From contig JAUQZC010000038.1 in the NCBI GenBank assembly GCA_030587435.1, positions 1 to 12,054 of the forward strand: a stretch of 12,054 nucleotides of DNA. Reading direction: 5' to 3'. The translations under genes were made by a program, and so were the position numbers. Position 1 is the stretch's first letter. Each line of letters begins with the position of its first letter. A model generated the notes under the pieces. It was not told the origin of the DNA. It ran no database searches and saw only the letters and a list, made by a program, of their open reading frames with translations. Below, piece by piece: positions 7,877-11,366 of the stretch. This DNA comes from Candidatus Baldrarchaeota archaeon. GTDB taxonomy: Archaea; Asgardarchaeota; Baldrarchaeia; Baldrarchaeales; DXJG01.

Positions 7877-7976
<100 letters not shown>

Positions 7977-9158: not shown

Positions 9159-9884
<726 letters not shown>

Positions 9885-10163: not shown

Positions 10164-11310
10164 ATGACGCAAAAAACAACAGTATCAATAATAAAAGCAG
10201 ATATAGGCTCTCTAGCAGGGCATCACGTAGTACACCCAGAACTCATCGAGCTAGCTAAAAAAGAATTGGAGCAAGCAAAGAAGCAAGGCATAATAATAGA
10301 CTATTATGTTTTTAACTGCGGAGACGACTTACAACTTCTAATGACCCATGATAAAGGAGAAGCAAACCCACATGTTCATGAACTCGCATGGAACACTTTT
10401 CAAAAAGCAGCAGAAAAAGCAAGGGAAATGAAACTCTACGGAGCAGGACAAGACCTATTAAAAGAAGCTTTCTCAGGAAACGTTAGAGGCATGGGGCCGG
10501 GAGTAGCAGAACTAGAATTCGAGGAAAGAAAATCGGATCCAATCCTAGTATTTGCAGCAGACAAAACAGAACCTGGAGCATTCAACCTACCACTATTCAG
10601 AGTATTCGCAGACCCCTTCAACACGCCAGGGCTCGTAATAGACCCCAAAATGCACGGACCAGACTTAGAACACACCGGATTCAAATTCAAAATACTCGAC
10701 GTCTTCAGTGGAAAAAGCGTAGTCCTAAAAGCACCAGAAGAAATCTATGACATCCTTGCACTAATAGGCACAACAGGACACTATGTAATCGAAAAAATAT
10801 GGAGATACGACGATCTACCAGCAGCTTCAGTATCAATAACAAGACTAAGCCTAATAGCAGGAAAATATGTAGGCAAAGATGACCCAGTAGCTATCGTACG
10901 CGCACAGCACGGCCTTCCAGCAGTAGGAGAAGTACTAGAAGCCTTCTCATTCCCACATGCAGTCGCAGGCTGGATGCGTGGCAGCCACTACGGACCCCTA
11001 ATGCCAGTAGGCCTAAAAGATGCTCGTTGCACAAGATTTGATGGACCACCAAGAATCGTCTGTCTCGGTTTCCAAGTATGTAATGGCCATCTAATTGGTC
11101 CCTCAGATATGTTTGATGACCCAGCATTTGACAGAACTCGAATGCTTGCCAGTGAAATCGCCGAATACTTCAGAAGACATGGACTCTTCATGCCTCATAG
11201 ACTCGGTCCAGATGGGAGAAGAGCAAATATGTTCTTCTCCCAGGACATACGAAATGGAGTACACCACATTGCCCCAAGTACTAGAGAAGCTAAAAACGCG
11301 ATTCAAATAA
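10164..11310 (+). CDS. fbp: Fructose-1,6-bisphosphate aldolase/phosphatase (class V FBPase), interrupted by a 37-nt intron
   Basis: Bifunctional gluconeogenic enzyme: condenses glyceraldehyde 3-phosphate and dihydroxyacetone phosphate and dephosphorylates the product to fructose 6-phosphate. Coding is join(10164..11211, 11249..11310), 369 aa, the usual family length. Visible motifs: KADIGSLAGHH (11-21, Asp13, His20), NCGDD (51-55, metal Asp54/Asp55), AADKTEPGAFN (131-141), GKYVGKDDPV (233-242; Tyr235 and Lys238 have the spacing of the Tyr/Lys pair that forms the aldolase Schiff base), FSFPHAVAGWMRGSHYGPLMPV (261-282 region), CLGFQ (300-304) and FRRHGLFMPHRLGPD. Unspliced, the frame leaves family similarity after residue 350 and runs to 11354 with an unrelated tail. 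Spliced, it ends EMEYTTLPQVLEKLKTRFK, the family C-terminus. Divergent from triosephosphate isomerase. Confidence 0.93.
11212..11248 (+). other. Predicted 37-nt bulge-helix-bulge intron in a protein-coding gene
   Basis: The RNA folds into a canonical BHB: outer helix TCG (11203-11205) with CGA (11250-11252); 3' bulge ATA (11247-11249); central 4-bp helix GTCC (11206-11209) with GGAC (11243-11246); 5' bulge AGA (11210-11212); inner perfect 10-bp helix TGGGAGAAGA (11213-11222) with TCTTCTCCCA (11233-11242) and a 10-nt loop. Cuts between the second and third bulge bases give exons ending at 11211 and starting at 11249. The intron is 37 nt (3n+1), and its removal joins G + AC into an Asp codon and shifts into the frame encoding the family C-terminus. 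Length matches the cbf5 mRNA introns known from Crenarchaeota. Fold and frame repair are seen; splicing itself is inferred. Confidence 0.88.
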
Positions 11311-11319
11311 CTCATACAC

Positions 11320-11332
11320 CTTTTTATTTTTC
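11320..11332 (+). terminator. T-tract terminator after the spliced stop of the aldolase/phosphatase
   Basis: C-TTTTT-A-TTTTT-C starts 10 bases after the TAA at 11308-11310. It lies inside the unspliced reading frame (stop at 11352-11354), which supports 11310 as the true end of the gene. Confidence 0.6.
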
Positions 11333-11366
11333 GGCAATCCAATGTCAAACCTGAATTTAATTTTGC

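Follow-up and report, generated by a model that had tools for sequence, protein, structure and literature searches.

The classic intron of an archaeal protein-coding gene is that of cbf5 in Crenarchaeota, for which splicing was demonstrated by cDNA and the bulge-helix-bulge (BHB) motif is mostly unconventional (PMC2738675, accessible portion). A 2020 paper on the archaeal splicing endonuclease cites the cbf5 mRNA intron as the only additional BHB intron reported to date (PMC7714728), and in the original prediction made from the present DNA known archaeal mRNA introns were said to be few. Two further cases are related: the mRNA of HVO_1309 in Haloferax, which is cut by the splicing endonuclease at BHB sites in its 5' UTR (PMC7714728, in part), and an archaeal virus whose protein genes contain putative introns of 12 bp (Peng et al., as cited in PMC2738675). 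No other archaeal mRNA intron is named in the accessible text of PMC12397907, PMC13149111, PMC12918454 and PMC6125680. A literature search by titles and abstract openings, which took in only a minority of subscription papers and preprints, showed no report of mRNA introns in Asgard archaea or of an intron in the fructose-1,6-bisphosphate aldolase/phosphatase gene (fbp), for which the original prediction likewise knew of none.

The predicted fbp intron described here belongs with the cbf5 intron among those of archaeal mRNAs, and it is the density of candidates in one genome that comes as the surprise. It differs from the cbf5 intron (PMC2738675, in part) in that i) it lies in another gene and another phylum, in uncultivated Asgard archaea of the class Baldrarchaeia, ii) it has the full outer-central-inner motif, iii) its splicing is predicted from sequence, and iv) around a dozen such candidates occur in a related genome. 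Unlike the UTR sites of HVO_1309 (PMC7714728, in part), its motif interrupts a coding frame. The viral inserts, likewise short and putative, are 12-bp units (PMC2738675, in part), whereas those described here lie in cellular genes, form hairpins of greater length and are supported by comparison with relatives. Archaeal tRNA introns have the same motif, and presumably the same endonuclease and ligase, but the host RNA of the fbp intron is an mRNA.

The interrupted fbp gene

The window (the whole 12,054-nt stretch analysed) carries fbp at 10164–11354 (+), assigned by NCBIfam NF041126 and with ST0318 (3r1m) as its top PDB match. The triose-phosphate isomerase gene (9159–9851, −) adjoins fbp (10164–11310, +) in divergent orientation, with one common intergenic region. 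When fbp is read straight through, the family sequence is lost after PHRLGPD and its remainder, EMEYTTLPQVLEKLKTRFK, is found one frame off, past 37 nt; this unspliced product has 396 aa, the final 46 of which are unrelated to the family, and it matches NF041126 with 562.8 bits, the profile being reached only to position 342. Excision of 11212–11248 (37 nt) gives a 369-aa product ending in PHRLGPDEMEYTTLPQVLEKLKTRFK, which matches the profile over positions 1–356 of 356 (587.7 bits), so that the restoration of the family C-terminus claimed in the original prediction was borne out. The features of the locus are as follows.

10164–11211, + strand: fbp exon 1, 349 full codons plus one base (NF041126, 562.1 bits, profile 1–340 of 356; relative of PDB 3r1m, ST0318)
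11203–11205, + strand: outer helix, 5' strand TCG (exon 1), pairing with 11250–11252
11206–11209, + strand: central 4-bp helix, 5' strand GTCC (exon 1), pairing with 11243–11246 (intron)
11210–11212, + strand: 5' bulge AG^A, predicted 5' cut after 11211
11212–11248, + strand: predicted 37-nt BHB intron (helices, bulges, restored frame; three relatives have orthologous inserts, 37, 34 and 49 nt long)
11213–11225, + strand: inner helix, 5' strand, 13 bp, pairing with 11230–11242
11230–11242, + strand: inner helix, 3' strand, pairing with 11213–11225
11243–11246, + strand: central helix, 3' strand GGAC (intron), pairing with 11206–11209
11247–11249, + strand: 3' bulge AT^A, predicted 3' cut after 11248
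11249–11310, + strand: fbp exon 2, (D)EMEYTTLPQVLEKLKTRFK plus stop (codon evolution in the spliced frame; spliced protein covers profile 1–356 of 356)
11250–11252, + strand: outer helix, 3' strand CGA (exon 2), pairing with 11203–11205
11212–11354, + strand: unspliced reading, 46-residue tail plus stop, unrelated to the family (in that frame all 57 codon differences are nonsynonymous)

As in archaeal BHB motifs, two 3-nt bulges lie on opposite strands with a 4-bp helix between them, and the conserved protein results when each bulge is cut behind its second base. The predicted fold, with a 3-bp outer, a 4-bp central and a 10-bp inner helix and 3-nt bulges, was reproduced in every part; the 10-bp core of the inner helix (TGGGAGAAGA/TCTTCTCCCA, 11213–11222 with 11233–11242) extends to 13 bp if one G-U pair is allowed. 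The position of the cuts is ambiguous by one base, with A at both 11212 and 11249, which leaves the mRNA unaffected. Lys232 is essential for aldolase and Tyr348 for phosphatase activity (PMC5080403, in part); alignment with ST0318 places counterparts of both in the spliced product, that of Tyr348 being the fourth residue after the split codon, in exon 2. For the spliced form, the predicted peptides are EMEYTTLPQVLEK and one that spans GPDEMEYTTLPQVLEK. A group I or group II intron was rejected, the insert measuring 37 nt and the sole Rfam match of the window at gathering thresholds being a tRNA.

A 76-nt region around the insert folds with −29.4 kcal/mol, compared with a mean of −15.65 (sd 2.63) for 200 dinucleotide shuffles (z −5.2), none of which folds as well. 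The best fold of this region leaves the 3-bp outer helix unpaired; the stretch 11193–11278 folds into the full motif, outer helix included. Under strict criteria the window has 5 matches to the motif on both strands together (shuffle mean 0.69 per strand, 100 shuffles), and only that in fbp has an inner helix longer than 7 bp. Of the 324 matches scored in 1.85 Mb of the related genome G002, none is lower in energy than the ortholog of this motif. However, stability by itself is no proof, since reversed G002 sequence holds two matches of still lower energy (2 at −25 kcal/mol or better, versus 0 in the real sequence). The case is carried by the agreement of the motif with the frame, the family and the relatives, the first three of which had already been brought together in the original prediction and are supported here.

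Conservation of the predicted fbp intron

Three genomes of the genus (G001, G002 and G003) and one from another family of the same order (G004) were compared; the window and G001 have 31% of sampled 31-letter words in common. All three genus members carry an fbp insert at the same base and with the same helices, of 37 nt in G001, 34 nt in G003 and 49 nt in G002, with varied loops, while fbp of G004 reads through without interruption (PHRLGPEEMEYTTLPQ). The gene therefore exists among related genomes both with and without the insert, a comparison called for in the original prediction, and the motif is kept while its interior varies, at lengths of 34–49 nt.

A set of 110 fbp loci was compared (the top 80 of 592 plus the top 30 of a second search, with some contigs in both); the gene is continuous in 99 and interrupted in 11. 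Five of the interrupted loci come from the three Baldrarchaeia genomes; the other 6, from five distinct sequences, belong to the Jordarchaeia/Sigynarchaeota lineage, in which the interruption is 70, 73 or 81 nt long and lies a few codons later, after EMEY-T. By eye the latter is a relaxed BHB motif (central TAC/GTA, inner TGCG/CGCA); the automatic BHB finder parsed 0 of these 6 loci. The interruption in this other Asgard lineage is independent of that in Baldrarchaeia. One further locus (L070), at first taken as interrupted, was discarded as an artefact of a loose motif, its gene being intact. Among the 120 homologues listed of 6081 found, the public protein clusters P0001–P0003 carry the Baldrarchaeia unspliced tail and P0110 a Jordarchaeia-type one, EMEYTTL is present in 107 and a variant in 8, and P0005 stops short of the motif. 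The lengths of the Baldrarchaeia fbp introns, whether seen (34, 37, 37 and 49 nt) or inferred from the tails of P0001–P0003 (37, 43 and 49 nt), are all 3n+1. This regularity (window 11212–11248; L040, L001 and L082) is not demanded by splicing, and other introns differ.

Codon evolution in exon 2 was compared over 19 codons in four sequences (six pairwise comparisons). The spliced frame has 46 synonymous and 9 nonsynonymous codon differences, the unspliced frame 0 and 57, and the third frame 4 and 54, with 3, 2 and 14 variable sites at codon positions 1, 2 and 3. Exon 2 is thus selected in the spliced frame alone. Pairing in the fbp helices is retained in 97.5% of 80 cells, compared with at most 53.8% when partners are slid. 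No double changes were found in these helices among the 4 sequences, the paired changes being one-sided (A-U to G-U), and the pairing does not exceed the shuffle control (reached in 201 of 500 shuffles), because the four sequences vary too little.

Candidate introns in other genes

The fbp intron is one of many, which could not be seen from the window. In G002, which was covered over 1,848,409 bases of about 1.9 Mb, as far as part of C18, 12 candidate introns were identified and are distributed over 9 protein genes: fbp (2), glyA (3), infB, pyrG, rpoN, pcm, porG, cpgs and atpD, where cpgs and glyA are names that we presume to fit these genes. An energy-ranked motif scan combined with a hexamer coding test led to ten of the interruptions, and two further glyA introns were found by reading the broken gene. 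Ten candidates, with the residues joined at the slash, are given below.

infB intron, G002: REAGGI/TQHIGA
pyrG intron, G002: IKIDP/YLNVDPG
rpoN intron, G002: IIPVR/CFTCGK
pcm intron, G002: TISAP/HMVA
porG intron, G002: FGAE/RRGAP
atpD intron, G002: PPTR/MELL
cpgs intron, G002: GAAGRD/FHNFN
glyA intron 2, G002: RYAE/GWPGER
fbp intron 1, G002: ortholog of the window intron, 49 nt
fbp intron 2, G002: C17:208556–208585, 30 nt, initially noticed in protein P0003 and in L082

The spliced products of infB, pyrG, rpoN, the ATPase subunit gene, pcm and porG have family matches above curated cut-offs; that of cpgs has no NCBIfam match. The second fbp intron interrupts the codon for the lysine that aligns with the catalytic Lys232 (GGC AA^A ... 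AA^A GAT). Eleven of the 12 candidates follow the cut rule and restore the motif, and their central helix has four pairs if G-U is counted. The exception is glyA intron 3, whose central helix has three pairs and whose frame requires 29 or 32 nt where the motif yields 31; a 45–47-nt match overlapping it was set aside. Half of the candidates are of the relaxed kind, since their outer helix has only 0 or 1 bp, the other 6 having at least 2 bp.

Motif counts alone cannot find mRNA introns, because the totals in real and reversed G002 sequence are alike: BHB motifs were not enriched (3524 strict matches versus 3457). Real and reversed matches by energy number 53/54 at −12 kcal/mol, 34/32 at −14, 21/15 at −16, 10/2 at −18, 6/2 at −20, 4/2 at −22 and 0/2 at −25. 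A first coding-frame filter gave 23 candidates, of which six were read; pyrG was real, and the rest, named by eye as L18/S5, ABC ATPase and permease, lipoate ligase and small GTPase, were neighbouring genes or unconvincing. In a relaxed scan 326 of 157,103 matches passed the coding test, and the most stable five of the 45 passers listed are infB, pyrG, porG, pcm and glyA intron 2; passers at −9.8 or weaker were set aside as a group, not one by one. When 60-nt flanks were used for a coding-junction test, 5 of the 34 motifs at −14 kcal/mol or better passed, namely the same five, compared with a mean of 0.12 passers (maximum 2) in 300 rounds of a displaced-cut control, and all 5 failed when the 3' cut was shifted by 1 or 2 bases. 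The introns fbp 1, fbp 2, rpoN, atpD and cpgs fail this test with 60-nt flanks because of short or N-terminal exons or in-frame inserts; they were recognised by eye from the restored motif, and fbp 1 and rpoN, but not cpgs, atpD or fbp 2, are also supported by relatives.

The infB and rpoN introns are present in all four related genomes, G004 included, and that of pyrG in G001, G002 and G003 but not in G004. The porG intron has 33 nt in G001, 35 nt in G002 and 34 nt in G003, and is not at that site in G004; the pcm intron is found in G001, G002 and G004, the gene not having been found in G003 (84% complete). The gene glyA is broken in all three genus members, the cpgs intron is present in G002 alone, with a continuous gene in the other three, and the atpD intron is predicted from the sequence of G002. 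The introns of porG, rpoN, pcm and pyrG span different mod-3 length classes. All 27 parsed Baldrarchaeia introns, glyA 3 among them, begin with A. When eight inner pairs of each sequence are counted across six orthologous intron sets, pairing holds in 167 of 168 cells, and double changes occur in 14 helix columns (infB 3, pcm 2, porG 3, rpoN 6, fbp and pyrG 0). The compensatory changes sought in the original prediction are accordingly seen in the introns of four other genes and not in the fbp helices, with 0 double changes in 4 sequences.

Other breaks were noted on the way. The porG gene of G004 (L261, reverse strand, about 1861–2010) is broken near AGIPVL by another hairpin, GGGTGAGG/CCTCACCC, which is likely to be a separate intron. 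Among the infB matches listed (the gene was found in 179 of the 195 Asgard genomes drawn), stops occur only in G001–G004 and in four genomes of one other family (f6; L276, L277, L279 and L280), where a hairpin carrying an in-frame stop interrupts the P-loop of infB (GHIDHGK); this site, read in three loci and provisional in register, differs from that of the Baldrarchaeia infB intron.

Several observations concern tRNA genes. The window tRNA at 7877–7976 (+) is called tRNA-Ser(GGA) by ARAGORN and Cys(GCA) with the intron option, while removal of 23 nt (7915–7937) by the BHB rule gives a 77-nt tRNA called Arg(GCG); judging by its sequence, it is likely a second BHB substrate in the window, with an ambiguous anticodon. 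In 1.85 Mb of G002 ARAGORN called only 18 tRNA genes, 12 of them with introns and several with unlikely structures, and the tRNAs of this genome are probably intron-rich and partly missed by the program. The pair CTAGCAG..CTGCTAG, 3–20 nt apart, occurs only twice in these 1.85 Mb, both times in a BHB intron: fbp intron 2 (C17:208556–208585) and a probable tRNA intron (C9:4557–4585) beside a tRNA T arm. A common origin of the two is possible. CTAG occurs 9 times in the 12 mRNA introns versus 1.1 expected, although the arms are not independent; 5 introns hold it.

Splicing enzymes, alternatives and implications

All four related genomes encode two splicing endonucleases (PF01974) and one RtcB. 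The comparison with PDB structures, made with relatives, rests on one alpha subunit (G003) and one beta subunit (G002). The alpha subunit is closest to 3p1z_B (E 1e-45), with the catalytic histidine aligned; this position is alanine in 3ajv_B, and the beta subunit has no histidine there. Both structures are of the A. pernix splicing endonuclease, and Tyr-His-Lys is the catalytic triad of this enzyme. A catalytic and a structural subunit form the broad-specificity heterotetramer, with M. kandleri as an exception (PMC6379350, in part). The Baldrarchaeia subunits resemble those of this form and would presumably assemble likewise.

The 37 nt are very probably a BHB mRNA intron: the archaeal splicing endonuclease would cut the fbp transcript at AG^A and AT^A, and RtcB would ligate the exons to give the full-length enzyme. 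That the transcript is cut and joined in the cell, and with what efficiency, we infer from these comparisons.

The strongest alternative, which we nevertheless regard as unlikely, is that splicing is partial and regulated, so that an unspliced form of 396 residues, without Tyr348, would be made alongside the spliced enzyme. It would suit the unspliced frame, which in the window as in three relatives has no stop within the insert, and the uniform 3n+1 length of the fbp introns, and it has a precedent in the negative-regulator role proposed for the cbf5 intron (PMC2738675, in part). However, the alternative tail is not conserved, with residues, length and stop all varying and 0 synonymous versus 57 nonsynonymous codon differences, and the introns of porG, rpoN, pcm and pyrG fall in different mod-3 classes. 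Very improbable is a programmed frameshift or ribosome bypassing over the hairpin, by which the frames would be joined with the RNA uncut. A strong hairpin marks the break in fbp, where the insert is 3n+1 long, and bypassing in phage T4 gene 60 likewise involves a hairpin, but bypassing requires matching take-off and landing codons, whereas here the take-off codon is GAU and the codon before GAA is UAC (window, G001) or CAC (G003, G002). Moreover, it leaves no role for exon-intron pairing with two 3-nt bulges, and the same architecture elsewhere contains in-frame stops (pyrG, infB) or has lengths of 33, 34 and 35 nt (porG). An assembly error or decaying pseudogene is hardly credible, for although the relatives with known titles are metagenome assemblies, three other genomes are interrupted at the same base, by inserts that differ in part in length, error being largely refuted by these independent assemblies, and the protein sequence of exon 2 is kept beyond the break.

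With removal of the 37 nt as a BHB intron as the preferred reading, such introns are probably common in the genus, the G002 sites often lying in conserved or catalytic motifs and their presence varying by lineage. They would persist because each is exactly removed, by an endonuclease with two kinds of subunit resembling the broad-specificity heterotetramer. Their location in conserved motifs may reflect a preference in insertion, survival where exact removal is enforced, or our recognition of them via conserved motifs.

What is new is another gene with a comparatively supported mRNA intron, and a related genome with about a dozen candidates, up to three per gene. The chances seem to us evenly balanced that Baldrarchaeia are the first known prokaryotes with protein genes rich in introns spliced by tRNA enzymes: short BHB introns spread in housekeeping genes and in conserved or catalytic motifs (the fbp lysine codon being split), gained and lost between sister species, with stems common to tRNA introns that would suggest movement between tRNA and mRNA genes, in archaea argued to share an ancestor with eukaryotes. 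If the fbp intron and its counterparts are real, gene callers would give conserved proteins of these archaea false tails or truncations, as in the unspliced tails of P0001–P0003; a prokaryote would allow the gain and loss of introns to be traced; and these cells would depend on their tRNA-splicing enzymes for transcription, translation initiation and central metabolism.
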